IMG/VR virus record: IMGVR_UViG_3300038552_000063
Coordinates: 1-23,014 of that record
Reading direction: 5' to 3' (one strand)
Length of the DNA stretch: 23,014 nt
Source: a virus
Shown here piece after piece: positions 3,202 to 22,200 of the stretch. Every line of letters starts with the position of its first letter. The first letter of the stretch is position 1. A program made the position numbers and the translations under genes. Below the pieces are notes generated by a model. It was not told the DNA's origin and ran no database searches. It saw only the letters and a list, made by a program, of their open reading frames with translations.

Positions 3202-4163
3202 GAAAGATCGAGCGCGACTACTCCAGCCTCCACGCCCCCAGCTCGCTCGGCCCGGGCGGCTTCCTCTCCCGCGCCTCGCGCCTGGTGGACGAGCTGGACT
3301 CCGACCTCGTGACCGCGATCGAGGACTTCAATCAACGCCTGACGGACGTGGCCGGGCCTGCCTCCCTCTCCGTCAACGAGTTCACGAACTCGGGGTTCAC
3401 GCTCACCGGGAAGAACACCCCGTCGAGCTACCTCGTCCGCTGCAACCACTCGGCCGCCGACTTCCAGATCGTGACCGCCGAGACGAGTTCGCTCCTCGTG
3501 ATCTACCCCGGAGCGACGCAGGACAGCGGCATCAACGTCAGGCACAACGCTCAGGGTCGGGCCTCCGCGCCCGCCTCCGCCGGGCACGCCCACTTCAACC
3601 TTCAGGATCTCAACTTCGGCCTGTTCGGAGGCCGCGAGGTGTTCTGGTCCGCGCGGCTGCTCATCCTACGCGACGACTCCGCGAACGCCTGGGACGGGCA
3701 GATCGCGCTCGGGCTCTCGCTGCCCGAGCAAGATTTCATGGTGAACACCACGGGCGCGCTCACGAACTGGCTCAACGACGGCGGGATCGTGTTCCACCTG
3801 GGCCGCGACAAGCAGCTCACGCTCAACGTGCGCGCCGCGACGACGACGCGCGTGGTCGGGACCATCGACCTCTCCGCCGAGCTGGCCGTGGGGCAGGGCG
3901 GGCTCGGGATCGACGTGGGGTTCCACATGATTCAAGACCCGGGCTACCCGTTCGGCGGAGGCGGGAGCGTGCAAATGTACGAGCGCCGCGGCGCGCGCGC
4001 TCCCTGGCGCTCCGTGGGGAGCCCGCTCACCGGGACGGTCTTTCCGACCACCGCGCAGCGCTACGGCTTCCACTGCGAGGTCGGCATGGGTGTCGGTCCG
4101 TACTCGCTGTTCATCGACCACGTGGCGAGCGCGATCACGCGCGAGACGAAGGTGGAGGAGTAG
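3198..4163 (+). CDS. Beta-rich, probably particle-associated protein
   Basis: A 321-residue protein from GTG 3198 (GTGA overlap with the upstream gene; AGGAGG at 3183-3188). A short helical N-terminus (about 1-50, SRASRLVDELDSDLVTAIED) is followed by a long Gly/Ser/Thr/Asn-rich region with alternating hydrophobics (NSGFTLTGKNTPSSYLVRC, KQLTLNVRAATTTRVVGTI, GPYSLFIDHVASAI). This reads as a lectin- or jelly-roll-like beta domain with an N-terminal anchor, as in receptor-binding or head-fibre proteins. The placement upstream of the terminase genes, away from the tail genes, is unusual for a fibre. No catalytic motif is visible. The role is an inference. Confidence 0.6.
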   Translation: MRKIERDYSSLHAPSSLGPGGFLSRASRLVDELDSDLVTAIEDFNQRLTDVAGPASLSVNEFTNSGFTLTGKNTPSSYLVRCNHSAADFQIVTAETSSLLVIYPGATQDSGINVRHNAQGRASAPASAGHAHFNLQDLNFGLFGGREVFWSARLLILRDDSANAWDGQIALGLSLPEQDFMVNTTGALTNWLNDGGIVFHLGRDKQLTLNVRAATTTRVVGTIDLSAELAVGQGGLGIDVGFHMIQDPGYPFGGGGSVQMYERRGARAPWRSVGSPLTGTVFPTTAQRYGFHCEVGMGVGPYSLFIDHVASAITRETKVEE

Positions 4164-4167
4164 AGGG

Positions 4168-4380
4168 GTGCGCCCGTTCGACATGGAGCGCGAGGCGCTC
4201 GCCTACGACGACTGCGCCGCGCAGGCGACGAGCGAAGTGGGACGCGCGCTCTACCGCCTCGGCTCCGCTCTGCTCCGCGTCGGCGCCTCCCTCTGCCGGC
4301 GCCTGGAGCGGCTCGACCCGGAGATCCAGGGCGAGGAGCAGGCAGCGCGGCCTCCGAAGATCCCGGGAGTGATGAGCTGA
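4168..4380 (+). CDS. Small helical hypothetical protein
   Basis: A 70-residue protein. GTG 4168 is chosen because GGAGGAG (4154-4160) lies 7 bases upstream; ATG 4183 is an alternative. It is Ala/Arg/Leu-rich and amphipathic (VGRALYRLGSALLRVGASLC), with three Cys. The family is not recognised. It sits 4 bases after the beta-rich protein and 3 bases before the next gene. Confidence 0.55.
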   Translation: MRPFDMEREALAYDDCAAQATSEVGRALYRLGSALLRVGASLCRRLERLDPEIQGEEQAARPPKIPGVMS

Positions 4381-4917: not shown

Positions 4918-6810
4918 GTGGAGATCCGCGATCGAATCCGCGAGCTGCGCCGCGTTCCTGCGGCCGAGCTGCGCGCGCACCCGAAGAACTGGCGCATCCA
5001 CACGCCGGCGCAGAGGAAGGCGCTCGCTGCGATGCTCGAGGAGGTCGGCTACGGCGCGGCGGCCATCGCCTACGAGTCGCCGCAACATGGTCCCGGGCTC
5101 ACGCTGATCGACGGCCACCTTCGCCAGGAGCAGGCGGCCGACGGGACCGTGCCGGTGCTCGTGCTCGACGTGACGGACGAGGAGGCGGAGAAGCTCCTCG
5201 CGACGATCGACCCGCTCAGCGCGATGGCGACCCCCGACCTCCCGAAGCTCGACGCCCTGGTGGGCGGGCTCGAGTTCAAGAGCCCCACCACGGCTCAGAT
5301 CATGGAGGACGTGGCCGGCATCTACCGCGCGGGCTTCGGCACCGCGAGCGGAGGCACCGGCCAGGAGAGCGCAGCGGCTCCGGTCGTGCGGCTCTCCGAG
5401 CGCTTCGTGGTGCCGCCGTTCTCGGTGCTCGACGGCCGCGCGGGGTACTGGCAGGAGCGGAAGCGGGCGTGGCTCTGCCTGGGCCTGCGCTCCGAGGTCG
5501 GGCGAGGGGAGAACCTGCTCGGCTTCTCGGACACGGTGCTGACCGCAGGGCGCGGCTCGAAGCCGGGCACGAAGGCGGGCAGCGTCCACAACGACCCGCA
5601 GTTCTACCGGAAGAAGCGCGCGGCGGAGCGAGCGATCACGCGCGGCGCTCCCGGCCTCGGGCTCTGGAAAGACCCTGGCACGGGCGCCAGCGCGAACGAC
5701 CCGAGCTACTTCGTGCAGAAGCAAGCAGCGGAGGCCGCGCTCGGGCGCGAGCTGACCAGCGCAGAGTTTGCCGAGCACTACTACGACCCCGGAGACAGCT
5801 TCCGAGGCACGAGCGTCTTCGACCCCGTGCTCTGCGAGCTGGCGTATCGGTGGTTCTCGCCTCCGGGCGGGCGCGTGCTCGACCCGTTCGCGGGAGGCTC
5901 GGTGCGCGGCATCGTGGCCGCCTGCCTCGGGCGCGAGTACGTCGGCATCGAGCTGCGGGAGGAGCAGGTCCGGGCGAACGAGGCGCAGCGGGAGGAGATC
6001 CTCTCGGGCGCTCCTCCGCCCCAGCTCGCCACGCTCTGCGACCCGGAGCAGCTCACGCCCGTGCAGGCGCTCCCGGGCCGGCGCTGGATCAAGCGCGACG
6101 ACCTGTTCGAGTGCAACGGCTCGCGAGGCTCGAAGGCCCGCGCGGCGCTCGCGATCTTGACCGGCGCGAAGGGCTGCACCACGGCCGGCTCGAGGCACTC
6201 GCCGATGGGAGCCCGCGTCGCGCGCGTGGCCGAGCACCTGGGGATTCCCTGCCGCGTCCACTACGCCTCCTCGAAGGAGCTGTCGCCCGAGGAGCTGGAC
6301 GCGCAGACGCACGGCGCCGAGCTGGTGAAGCACAGCGTCAACTACCTCACGGCGCTGCGCTCGAAGGCCAGGGAGGACGCGAAGCGGCGCGGCTGGGTCT
6401 TCGTGGAGCTGGGCGTGGAGAGCGCGGAGTTCGTGGACCTCTCCCGCAAGCAGGTCGCGAACTGCCCGCCCGAGGCGGAGCGCGTGGTGATTCCCGTGGG
6501 CACCGGGATGGCGCTCGCGGCGCTCCTCCACGGGCTCGATGACTACGGGCGATCCGAGCTGCCCGTGCTCGGCGTGGTCGTGGGGATGCAGCCGGAGAAG
6601 TGGCTCAAGCGCTGGGCGCCCGCGAACTGGCAGAGCCGCGTCGAGCTGGTAAAGGCGGCCTCGCCGTTCTCGGAGCCGGCGGAGGACCGCTACCTCTGCG
6701 GCGTCCTCGTGGACGCGCACTACGAGGCGAAGTGCCTCCCGTTCATGCGCGAGGGCGACGTGCTCTGGTCCGTCGCGCTCTCCGCGCACGAGGCGGAGGG
6801 CGGCGCGTGA
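4918..6810 (+). CDS. ParB-like / split methyltransferase (motif I half) / PLP fold-II fusion
   Basis: A 630-residue multidomain protein from GTG 4918. Residues 10-105 are ParB/Srx-like (TLIDGHLRQEQA at 62-73), a module often fused to phage DNA methylases. Residues 155-365 read as the N-terminal half of such a methylase: PPFSVLDGRAGYWQERKRAW (166-185), SVFDPVLCELAYRWF, the SAM-binding motif LDPFAGGSVRGIVA (321-334) and YVGIEL (341-346), whose Glu would bind the SAM ribose. No DPPY-type catalytic motif follows. Instead residues 383-620 resemble fold-type-II PLP enzymes (D-cysteine desulfhydrase, ACC deaminase, tryptophan synthase beta): WIKRDDLF, GSRGSKAR with Lys406 as candidate Schiff-base lysine, TTAGSRHSPMGARVA, and a Gly-rich phosphate loop VIPVGTGMALA (524-534). 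Two similar segments (NDPQFYRKKRAAERA at 225-239, NDPSYFVQKQAAEAA at 260-274) lie in the methylase half. The GTGA overlap couples it to the next gene, which carries the missing methylase half. Confidence 0.8.
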   Translation: MEIRDRIRELRRVPAAELRAHPKNWRIHTPAQRKALAAMLEEVGYGAAAIAYESPQHGPGLTLIDGHLRQEQAADGTVPVLVLDVTDEEAEKLLATIDPLSAMATPDLPKLDALVGGLEFKSPTTAQIMEDVAGIYRAGFGTASGGTGQESAAAPVVRLSERFVVPPFSVLDGRAGYWQERKRAWLCLGLRSEVGRGENLLGFSDTVLTAGRGSKPGTKAGSVHNDPQFYRKKRAAERAITRGAPGLGLWKDPGTGASANDPSYFVQKQAAEAALGRELTSAEFAEHYYDPGDSFRGTSVFDPVLCELAYRWFSPPGGRVLDPFAGGSVRGIVAACLGREYVGIELREEQVRANEAQREEILSGAPPPQLATLCDPEQLTPVQALPGRRWIKRDDLFECNGSRGSKARAALAILTGAKGCTTAGSRHSPMGARVARVAEHLGIPCRVHYASSKELSPEELDAQTHGAELVKHSVNYLTALRSKAREDAKRRGWVFVELGVESAEFVDLSRKQVANCPPEAERVVIPVGTGMALAALLHGLDDYGRSELPVLGVVVGMQPEKWLKRWAPANWQSRVELVKAASPFSEPAEDRYLCGVLVDAHYEAKCLPFMREGDVLWSVALSAHEAEGGA

Positions 6811-8756
6811 AGCCCTGGCAGCGAGGCTACTCCCTCGCCGACCTCAAGCGCGTGAGCGCCTGCTTCGCAGCCCACGAGGCCGGCCTGGTCTTCGGAGCGT
6901 TCGGGCGGACCTCGGAGCAGGCCGTGGCGGAGGCCGCGGCGAAGGGTCGGCTCCGCGCCCTGGCGCGCCCGGGCGGCGAGGTCGTGGCCGCCGCGATCCT
7001 CTCCCGGGTGGGCGCGAGCGTGCGCCGCCTGGACTTCCGCAGGGAGCCCGTCGCGGAGATCGGGAAGGGCGACCTCCTCGTGAAGCGCACGGCGGCGCTC
7101 CCTGGGGCCTCTGCGGCGCTGGTGGGCCTGCTCTCGGAGGCGCTGCTCGCGGAGAGCTTCGGCGGGCCTGGCAGCTCGTGGTGGGAGCTGTGGCAGGAGA
7201 GCCCGGCCGATCTCCGGGTGGCGGAGGCGTTCGGGCTCAGGCTCCAGGGCGTGAGCATCGCTGCCTCCTCCGAGCTGCGCGGCCTCTACCGAGGCGGCCA
7301 GGAGGAGCAGGCGGGCGCGCCGCTGATCGAGCGCCGCGACCTCCTGGGGCTCGCGCGGCTCGGCTACCTCGACACGGAGCCGGCGCGCGCGGAGCTGGAT
7401 GCGCTCGCAGACGGGCTCGGCTGGCAGGACCACTACTCGCACTACAACAAGCGGCGGAGCTGGAGCGCGCTCGCGCTGCGAGGCTACGGAGGCCGCTCCG
7501 ACTTCATCGAGAAGCCGTCGGAGATGGCGAAGGCGTGGCAGGCGGAGAACAAGCCGAAGCTCCGGTGGAAGATCGCCGACACGGCGCTGCGGGCTCAGCT
7601 TCCCGCGTGCTGGGCGCTGGTCGAGGAGATCGCGGAGTCGCTCCGCCTCTCCGACCTCCACCGGGTTCGCCTGATGCGGCTCGCTCCAGGCGGAGGAGAG
7701 CTGACGCGCCACGCCGATATCACGGACCCCGACTCGGGCACGTCGCCCGGGCGGATCGTGAGGCTCCACCTCCCGCTCCAGACGAACGAGCAGGTGCGCT
7801 TCCGCTCCTGGGGGATCGACGGCTCGCAGTTCGGCGCGCACATGGGCGATGGCGAGGTCTGGTACCTCGACACGCGGAAGCCCCACACGGCGAAGAACGG
7901 AGGCGCCTGCGACCGCGTGCACCTCGTGGTCGATGCCGCCGTCACGCCGGAGTTCGCTGAGCTGCTCCAGAACGCGGAGTCGGCGGCCGTGGAGCAGGCG
8001 CGACCCGAGCCCGAGGCTGCGGGAGAGCCGGAGCCCGGCCTCTGTCCGGTCGTGCTCTCGCGCGGCGAGGAGCAGGAGCCGGCGCCGAAGCCGAAGGCGC
8101 AGCCGAAAGCGCGGGCGCGCGCGGACGAGCCCGAGCCTGAGCCTGAGCGCCAGGAGCCGGCGCCCGAGCTGCTCCCGTTCCTGGCGGATCGAGCCTCTGC
8201 ACCGAAGCCGCGATGGATCATGGGCGAAGCGGCCGCAACGCTCGAGGCGATGCCCGAGGCCGAGCGCTTCGACTTCCTGTTCACCTGCCCGCCGTACGGG
8301 AACCTGGAGATCTACTCCGACGACCCGGCCGACCTCTCGGCGGCGCAGAGCTACGAGGACTTCATCGGGCGGTTCGAGACGATCGTGGAGCGGGCCTGCG
8401 CTCGGCTCCGCGACGACCGCTTCGCTGCGATCGTGCTCTCCGACTTCCGAGGGGAGTGGACGGCCGACGGCTGCTACGCGGGCTTCCCTGCCGACTGCGT
8501 GCGGGCCTTCGAGAAGGCGGGCCTGCGGCTCTACAACGAGGCCGTGCTGATCCACCCGGCGGCCACGCTGCCGCTGCGAGCGGCGCGGATCTTCTCCGGC
8601 GGGAGGAAGCTCGGCCGGATGCACCAGGAACTGCTCGTGTTCGTGAAGGGCGACCCGCGCAAGGCGCACGAAGCCTGCGGCCCGCTCGATCTCACGGCGC
8701 TGGAGGAGGCGGCAAGTGGCGAAGCCGAAGCGGCGGAGGAAGCGAGCGCCGACTGA
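6807..8756 (+). CDS. AspH-like 2OG-Fe(II) oxygenase / split methyltransferase (TCPPY half) fusion
   Basis: A 649-residue protein from GTG 6807 (GTGA overlap). Residues 1-165 form an unassigned alpha/beta domain ending in GVSIAASSELRGLY, with a Trp-rich GSSWWELWQES; a GNAT-like fold is possible but motif A is not clear. Residues 205-378 match the aspartyl/asparaginyl beta-hydroxylase type of 2OG-Fe(II) oxygenase: His302-x-Asp304 (TRHADI), RIVRLHLPL, GDGEVWYLDTRKPH with distal His360, and DRVHLVVDA with Arg370 for 2-oxoglutarate. Residues 394-465 are a Pro/Glu/Lys/Arg-rich linker. Residues 468-620 are the catalytic half of an amino-methyltransferase: FDFLFTCPPYGNLEIYSDDP (488-507), LRDDRFAAIVLSDFRGEW, LYNEAVLIHP, RKLGRMHQELLVFVKGDP. 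This half normally follows motif I in the same polypeptide; here motif I is in the preceding gene. The 3' end overlaps the terminase small-subunit gene by 41 bases. Confidence 0.8.
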   Translation: MKPWQRGYSLADLKRVSACFAAHEAGLVFGAFGRTSEQAVAEAAAKGRLRALARPGGEVVAAAILSRVGASVRRLDFRREPVAEIGKGDLLVKRTAALPGASAALVGLLSEALLAESFGGPGSSWWELWQESPADLRVAEAFGLRLQGVSIAASSELRGLYRGGQEEQAGAPLIERRDLLGLARLGYLDTEPARAELDALADGLGWQDHYSHYNKRRSWSALALRGYGGRSDFIEKPSEMAKAWQAENKPKLRWKIADTALRAQLPACWALVEEIAESLRLSDLHRVRLMRLAPGGGELTRHADITDPDSGTSPGRIVRLHLPLQTNEQVRFRSWGIDGSQFGAHMGDGEVWYLDTRKPHTAKNGGACDRVHLVVDAAVTPEFAELLQNAESAAVEQARPEPEAAGEPEPGLCPVVLSRGEEQEPAPKPKAQPKARARADEPEPEPERQEPAPELLPFLADRASAPKPRWIMGEAAATLEAMPEAERFDFLFTCPPYGNLEIYSDDPADLSAAQSYEDFIGRFETIVERACARLRDDRFAAIVLSDFRGEWTADGCYAGFPADCVRAFEKAGLRLYNEAVLIHPAATLPLRAARIFSGGRKLGRMHQELLVFVKGDPRKAHEACGPLDLTALEEAASGEAEAAEEASAD

Positions 8757-21666: not shown

Positions 21667-22200
21667 GTGAGCCGGCTCTACCTCCGGCGCTGGTCGGAAG
21701 CGGCGGCGCTCAACGAGCGCATCACGGCGCGCGTGTTCGCGGAGCGCCGTCGCTTCCCGGCCTGCAACATCGTGGGCTCGACCGCCTGGTCCTCTGCGAT
21801 GGATCTCCATCGCTGGCAGGCGCCCGAGACGGACGCCCTGTTCGCGTGGATGCGCGAGCAGGTGGCCGAGGCGTGGGACCTCCCCTACCCGTGGGAGCAG
21901 GTGCACGCCGTTGCCTGGGCGAACGTGGCCGAGCAGGGCGCCTTCACAGCGCCCCACGACCACCACCTTGCGGATTGGGCGGCCGTGTACTACGCCTCTG
22001 CGCCTGACGGCTCGGGGAGGCTCGTGCTCGACGGCCACCCAAGCGGCGCGCCCTCCGGTGCGATCCCTCCCGAGCCCGGCCTCCTCCTGATCTTCCCTGC
22101 CACCTGGCGGCATCGCGTGGAGCCGACCCTCTCGGCTATCCCGCGCGTCTCGATCGCCGCCAACTTCCACAGTCGCAATTTCGAGAACATGGGACCGTGA
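21667..22200 (+). CDS. 2OG-Fe(II) oxygenase-like protein in the tail module
   Basis: A 177-residue protein from GTG 21667. The C-terminal half matches the small phage/bacterial 2OG-Fe(II) oxygenase family (prolyl-hydroxylase-like): FTAPHDHHLADWAAVYYASA (first metal ligands expected in the His/Asp cluster), GSGRLVLDG, EPGLLLIFPATWRHRVEPTL (distal His in WRHRVEP), and IPRVSIAANF with Arg for 2-oxoglutarate. The N-terminus contains SAMDLHRW. It sits between the tail tube and tail assembly chaperone genes, 6 bases after the tube stop. Hydroxylation of a virion protein is the simplest inference; activity cannot be shown from sequence. Confidence 0.75.
   Translation: MSRLYLRRWSEAAALNERITARVFAERRRFPACNIVGSTAWSSAMDLHRWQAPETDALFAWMREQVAEAWDLPYPWEQVHAVAWANVAEQGAFTAPHDHHLADWAAVYYASAPDGSGRLVLDGHPSGAPSGAIPPEPGLLLIFPATWRHRVEPTLSAIPRVSIAANFHSRNFENMGP

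Follow-up and report, generated by a model that had tools for sequence, protein, structure and literature searches.

A phage gene pair predicted to encode a split, permuted DNA methyltransferase with inserted PLP-enzyme, GNAT-like and AspH-like domains

Gene pair and domain content

The window analysed here is the whole of the IMG/VR virus record IMGVR_UViG_3300038552_000063, a stretch of 23,014 bases with a GC content of 71%. Pfam and PHROGs searches revealed two genes, here called G1 and G2, located just upstream of the terminase genes, with portal, head and tail genes also downstream. Between them the two genes carry parts of a DNA methyltransferase, a pyridoxal 5'-phosphate (PLP) enzyme and a 2-oxoglutarate (2OG)-Fe(II) oxygenase (Table 1). 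A mechanical open reading frame (ORF) call placed the start of G2 at 6600; this was rejected in favour of the GTG at 6807, which overlaps the G1 stop codon as GTGA and corresponds to the position at which stand-alone homologues begin (M-x-x-WQ-x-G). The G+C content at third codon positions was 0.92-0.94, coding-like, in both frames and, together with the domain E-values, rules out that the domain content arose by chance. PADLOC returned almost solely generic type II methyltransferase matches and no defence system.

Table 1. Features of the G1-G2 locus in the window
Feature	Coordinates	Strand	Evidence or remarks
G1	4918..6810	+	630 aa, GTG start; ParB-like domain, methyltransferase SAM-binding half, PLP enzyme; Pfam and PHROGs
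ParB-like domain (G1)	4918..5367	+	DGHLR motif at 5110-5124; phrog_15396 E 9e-15, phrog_620 E 1e-5
Conserved family-specific segment (G1)	5389..5517	+	VPPFSVLD..WQERKRAWL..GLRSE.GRG; invariant columns in alignments A2 and A8
Methyltransferase first half, SAM-binding (G1)	5797..6003	+	motif I DPFAGG at 5881-5898; PF01555 and 2zie profile match
PLP enzyme, D-cysteine desulfhydrase/ACC-deaminase-like (G1)	6040..6771	+	PF00291 E 5e-10, aa 380-553
GTGA overlap of G1 stop and G2 start	6807..6810	+	sequence
G2	6807..8756	+	649 aa; GNAT-like domain, AspH-like oxygenase, linker, methyltransferase catalytic half
GNAT-fold domain (G2)	6828..7307	+	AF2 model, VIA, Foldseek; conserved CoA pyrophosphate motif absent
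AspH/cis-P4H-type 2OG-Fe(II) oxygenase (G2)	7392..7967	+	PF05118 E 2e-12
Pro/Glu/Lys-rich linker (G2)	7968..8171	+	sequence
Methyltransferase second half, catalytic (G2)	8154..8735	+	motif IV CPPY at 8286-8297; phrog_498 E 2e-50, phrog_12517 E 2e-46
SAM, S-adenosylmethionine; ACC, 1-aminocyclopropane-1-carboxylate; CoA, coenzyme A.

The first-pass annotation, made from the letters of the window and a list of its ORFs, had assigned a ParB-like domain, an amino-methyltransferase and a fold-type-II PLP domain to the first gene, and an unassigned N-terminal domain followed by an AspH-like oxygenase to the second. Profile searches of both genes bore out the ParB-like and PLP domains of G1 and the oxygenase of G2, and matched the motif-I region of the methyltransferase; the active sites of the named domains are intact (the PLP lysine, HxD..H..R of the oxygenase and DPFAGG), and CPPY is present. 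The ParB-like domain was recovered by PHROGs profiles, the Pfam ParB_N match to G1 being under threshold.

The PLP domain shows the fold, the catalytic lysine (Lys406 in GSKAR, 6127-6147) and the phosphate loop (PVGTGMA, 6493-6513) of fold-type-II PLP enzymes, the lysine being invariant in alignment A10 and the Gly-rich loop conserved too. Its profile matched PDB entries 1j0a and 4d8t, of the ACC deaminase and D-cysteine desulfhydrase kind, and a model of the corresponding domain of a relative, L087, gave a Z score of 24 against 1j0a; the NCBIfam model TIGR01275 scored the G1 domain far under its cut-off. The domain thus resembles D-cysteine desulfhydrase and ACC deaminase, a similarity from which the substrate and reaction cannot be read. 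Glutamicibacter phage Montesquieu (L004, 4973-7483) also encodes a PLP enzyme of this kind, there as a stand-alone protein; its gene is flanked by those for an alpha-glutamyl/putrescinyl thymine pyrophosphorylase and a P-loop protein, tying this PLP family to thymine hypermodification.

In G2, the oxygenase scored 47.5 bits against PF05118 (Asp_Arg_Hydrox; cut-off, 22.6). Its HxD..H iron site and 2OG-binding arginine, formed by His302 and Asp304 (RHADITD, 7707-7727), His360 (KPH) and Arg370 (DRVH), were invariant in 47 sequences. The best solved relative was L-proline cis-4-hydroxylase (4p7w, E 2e-9 and 5e-9), which shares the family and the iron/2OG residues, whereas in G2 the oxygenase is fused to a GNAT-like domain and half a DNA methyltransferase. 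In addition, there was a weak match to TIGR04531, a family of putative non-proteinogenic amino-acid hydroxylases. The oxygenase therefore resembles amino-acid hydroxylases, a likeness that does not itself specify its reaction. The tail module of the window contains a second, unrelated 2OG-Fe(II) oxygenase ORF (21667-22200; PF13759 E 6e-14, phrog_81 E 7e-21), positioned between the major tail protein gene and that for the tail assembly chaperone.

The N-terminal domain of G2, left unassigned by the first-pass annotation, was assigned a GNAT fold by structure prediction alone, since a PDB sequence search with it gave nothing useful. Specifically, an AF2 model of the first 195 residues, built with 46 relatives, reached a pLDDT of 86.6; VIA aligned it with 2pc1 (Z 14.0, root-mean-square deviation 3.4, 152 aligned residues) and Foldseek with 5jtf (ArsN; E 4e-6). 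The GNAT fold is shared by Mom, which modifies DNA in phage Mu. The CoA pyrophosphate loop expected after strand 4 (Q/RxxGxG/A) showed no conserved glycines in the 47 sequences, about half of the rows being gap-rich there. Because this loop is not conserved, we think that the domain is substrate-binding or otherwise altered rather than an ordinary acetyltransferase.

The split methyltransferase

The methyltransferase halves were assessed by profiles rather than by fold search, the VIA list for the methyltransferase-PLP model spanning the PLP part only. The phage DNA methyltransferase family phrog_498 gave two separate matches, one to G1 near DPFAGG and a stronger one to the last third of G2 near CPPY. 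PF01555 (N6_N4_Mtase) matched the motif-I region of G1 (E 2e-7, aa 312-353) at profile positions 177-218 of 221, and in G1 and G2, or in relatives of the two, the regions matched by these families complement each other. When a profile of contiguous relatives was aligned with the beta-class methyltransferase 2zie, the order was swapped, with the first half corresponding to positions 224-268 and the second to 23-102, showing that the family is a circular permutation of a beta-class amino-methyltransferase. Motif I is typical of that class, being DPFAGG in G1 and DPFAGGSV in 60 of 68 relatives. Motif IV departs from the usual [DNS]PP[YFW], as G2, like 70 of 72 family members, reads CPPY, with PPY retained but Cys first; nor does IV precede I in one chain, as in the beta class, but I precedes IV, across two genes, so that the enzyme is homologous but rearranged.

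Only together, then, do G1 and G2 carry both halves of a ParB-linked, permuted beta-class DNA amino-methyltransferase, and since the halves are divided between them neither gene of the window can be a methyltransferase alone. The earlier placing of the amino-methyltransferase in the first gene was correct for the SAM-binding half, but had overlooked the catalytic half at the C-terminus of G2.

Comparison of relatives identifies the join between the two halves as the site at which extra domains are inserted. In the window, the insert consists of the PLP enzyme, the gene break, the GNAT-like domain, the oxygenase and the linker. ParB-N6_N4 methyltransferase fusions have been documented in phages (PMC12704722), and those of phrog_498 resemble the window in having a ParB-like domain and a permuted methyltransferase with DPFAGGSVRG and CPPY, but keep the methyltransferase in one chain, without PLP, GNAT or AspH domains. 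A PLP enzyme at the same seam without GNAT-AspH was found in Pseudanabaena phage Pam4, Erythrobacter phages R6L and ZS04, the locus L007 and about 18 other IMG/VR loci. The proteins of the three cultured phages share 33-36% identity with the window over G1 but, unlike it, are encoded by one ORF, and we found no published function for them. Loci L008 and L118 carry the PLP enzyme plus a further insert, marking the seam as an insertion hotspot. The extra insert, which lies between the PLP enzyme and the second half in L008 (7742-8356) and in the corresponding gap of L118, is Cys-rich with only a weak DUF3109 match.

Fused relatives and operon types

In another virus, L084, a single ORF of 1275 aa contains, in order, ParB, the methyltransferase first half, the PLP enzyme, GNAT-AspH and the methyltransferase second half. 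It is colinear with the pair end to end, G1 sharing 44.5% identity with aa 97-673 and G2 44% with aa 680-1257, and its internal MKAWQKG aligns exactly at the G2 start, VKPWQRG. In L010 and L012, the ParB-methyltransferase is fused to GNAT-AspH and the PLP enzyme is the next gene. On the grounds of the colinear fusion in L084, the split methyltransferase and the GTGA overlap, the earlier proposal that the two genes act as one functional unit is strongly supported by these sequence comparisons.

A scan of viral_contigs with a single GNAT-AspH sequence returned nothing; alignment queries were required, and these retrieved 74 and 80 AspH loci and 58 PLP loci. Clustering of GNAT-AspH at 90% identity gave 75 clusters, taken as non-redundant loci, of which, within the retrieved stretch, 40 had a related methyltransferase, 31 a PLP enzyme and 26 both, so that the search in other phages suggested with the first-pass annotation did reveal recurrence of the parts. 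Most of the remaining clusters were fragments or belonged to the Tet/JBP operon type described below. At most of the 58 PLP loci the methyltransferase was fused or nearby. Two loci without a PLP enzyme, L018 (6751-7371) and L031 (6758-7378), have a 207-aa N6_N4 methyltransferase-like gene after GNAT-AspH.

GNAT-AspH of this type is virus-restricted, a single locus having turned up in 84,980 species genomes of prokaryotes. In the 50,697 records of cultured phages, only Mycobacterium phage LilMcDreamy was found to carry it and none the full combination, so that the set as a whole is known from metagenomes only, with LilMcDreamy, Pam4, R6L and ZS04 as cultured partial relatives. No description of the set was found in the literature searched, which covered MetaGPA, phosphorothioation, jumbo phages and Pam4 but not Iyer et al. 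2013, in agreement with the earlier statement that no described system has this exact combination. The record of Limnohabitans phage DC33 (L005), in which an AspH gene is followed by a GNAT gene, is labelled Inoviridae; this taxonomy looks wrong, since the record encodes a terminase-like protein.

A second operon type was represented by LilMcDreamy (genes 1-5) and a well-supported clade of 24 IMG/VR sequences, in which GNAT-AspH typically occurs with a ParB-like gene, Tet_JBP, amino acid:DNA transferase (ADDT) and P-loop kinase 3 (PF18751). Tet_JBP and the kinase were each present in 13 of 13 Tet-type records versus 0 of 18 methyltransferase-type records, and ADDT in 5 of 5 versus 0 of 24; conversely, a search of Tet/ADDT-type records found no permuted methyltransferase. 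Records may be fragments and the absences are not final, though the contrast between the operon types is strong. L036 and L040, in which the ParB-Tet-ADDT pattern was not seen and which have other methyltransferase-like genes, were rejected as Tet-type and left out of the 13/13 tallies. The Tet-type operons share with the window a ParB-like gene, GNAT-AspH and a position upstream of the terminase, but their entry step is Tet/JBP oxidation, followed by kinase and ADDT, without an amino-methyltransferase or PLP enzyme. We rejected the window as a system of this type, as Tet_JBP, ADDT and the kinase are all absent from its record, which may be incomplete. The window ParB shared 51% identity with the ParB gene of a Tet/JBP-type operon, L037, versus at most 40% with ParBs of its own type, suggesting module exchange. 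ADDT is named, in its Pfam description, for the attachment of amino acids to DNA; Iyer et al. 2013 reportedly described the Tet/JBP-kinase-ADDT families, with ADDT in that role. In LilMcDreamy (L003), the gene annotated as queuine tRNA-ribosyltransferase (855-1787) matched Tet_JBP instead, and that annotated as terminase small subunit (3761-4333) matched P-loop kinase 3.

Predicted function and alternatives

G1 and G2 probably specify one phage-encoded DNA-base modification complex. A role in DNA hypermodification is well supported by context, since GNAT-AspH recurs with known or predicted DNA-hypermodification genes, and to this extent, as in its view of the pair as one unit, the first-pass proposal of a two-gene hypermodification system holds, although not with a complete methyltransferase in the first gene. 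The chemistry we infer is as follows. The ParB-methyltransferase unit would bind phage DNA and attach a group derived from SAM to an exocyclic amine (N6 of adenine or N4 of cytosine), and the PLP and oxygenase modules would elaborate this mark. GNAT-AspH would most likely hydroxylate an amino-acid-like substituent on the base, because it also serves the Tet/JBP-kinase-ADDT pathway, whose predicted product is an aminoacylated base, and because it resembles amino-acid hydroxylases; in the window pathway, the SAM-dependent enzyme, alone or with the PLP enzyme, would have to supply such a group. Presumably the modification would serve to shield the DNA from nucleases of the host ahead of packaging, the genes lying just upstream of the terminase. 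More specifically, and only as a tentative suggestion that we regard as unlikely to be right in full, the permuted CPPY enzyme may transfer the 3-amino-3-carboxypropyl group of SAM, or another amino-acid-bearing group, rather than methyl, to the base, after which the PLP enzyme would act on the DNA-attached alpha-amino acid and GNAT-AspH would hydroxylate it. The prevalence of CPPY in the family fits this suggestion without showing it.

The CmoA-CmoX-CmoY carboxymethylcytosine pathway, in which a SAM-type DNA transferase makes a handle that is then amidated with glycine, offers a parallel; ParB neighbours were noted in that study, and an N6 or N4 equivalent was not found (PMC12783734). As in our proposal, a SAM-type handle, made by a transferase that is often found near ParB, is followed by amino-acid elaboration by another enzyme, but the chemistry is that of C5 of cytosine with carboxy-SAM (Cx-SAM), unlike the N6/N4 type considered here. 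Simple carboxymethyl supply of the CmoA type was rejected, PF08003 being absent from 15 related records, which may be fragments and do not include the window, and a host CmoA could serve.

Several points weigh against a multi-step DNA modification. Some related loci have the methyltransferase and GNAT-AspH but no PLP gene, and the PLP step is therefore not obligatory; given the departure of CPPY from the usual motif IV, not even simple transfer of methyl can be taken for granted; the CoA motif is missing from the GNAT domain; and the AspH family includes protein and lipid hydroxylases as well. It is conceivable, though unlikely, that the ParB-methyltransferase makes ordinary N6-methyladenine or N4-methylcytosine, and that the PLP and AspH enzymes are cargo, fused for convenience, that work on free amino acids to provide or alter a small molecule. 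Many methyltransferase relatives, such as those of Vincenzo, HCTV-2 and phiFL3A, do lack both enzymes, and the PDB homologues of both act on free amino acids; insertion within the methyltransferase domain in many viruses, the colinear multi-enzyme ORF of L084 and the sharing of GNAT-AspH with the Tet/ADDT pathway, however, favour a common DNA-bound substrate. The membership of protein-modifying enzymes in the AspH and GNAT superfamilies would also accommodate a complex that modifies a protein or metabolite, for example by adding a hydroxyl or acetyl group to a protein of the host or capsid, which we consider very unlikely given the fusion to a ParB-DNA methyltransferase, the tailoring protein in common with Tet/JBP-ADDT operons and a GNAT domain devoid of the CoA motif.

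Least likely of all, in our estimate, is that the PLP domain serves as a D-cysteine-desulfhydrase-like sulfur donor, yielding a thiolated base or a sulfur-containing DNA mark. D-cysteine desulfhydrase is indeed among its closest solved relatives, and phage ZS04 has a 3'-phosphoadenosine 5'-phosphosulfate (PAPS)-reductase-like feature nearby, but ACC deaminase and serine/threonine dehydratases score about equally. A partner for sulfur transfer was not seen among the window genes and is not conserved across the loci read, and this scheme gives the oxygenase no evident part to play. A different question, compatible with the proposed DNA-base modification, is whether G1 and G2 are one ORF broken by an assembly indel, gene decay or a programmed frameshift. 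The single ORF of L084 runs across the same point, and the two genes are in different frames; the GTGA overlap, the match of the G2 start to that of stand-alone homologues, and the retention of all catalytic residues and coding third-position G+C content in both ORFs make such a break distinctly improbable.

The gene pair defines a family of predicted hypermodification systems, confined to viruses, that build several enzyme activities into a single split methyltransferase; one tailoring protein, GNAT-AspH, is shared by two mutually exclusive gene sets for putting a handle on DNA. If aminocarboxypropyl transfer were true, it would give DNA an equivalent of the acp modifications of tRNA and, alongside Tet/JBP-kinase-ADDT, would open a second route to aminoacylated DNA. 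Recognition of these families could aid the annotation of many phage genes now listed as hypothetical, terminase or queuine transferase and, since cultured partial relatives exist in LilMcDreamy, Pam4, R6L and ZS04, what phages add to their DNA after the first mark is directly testable.

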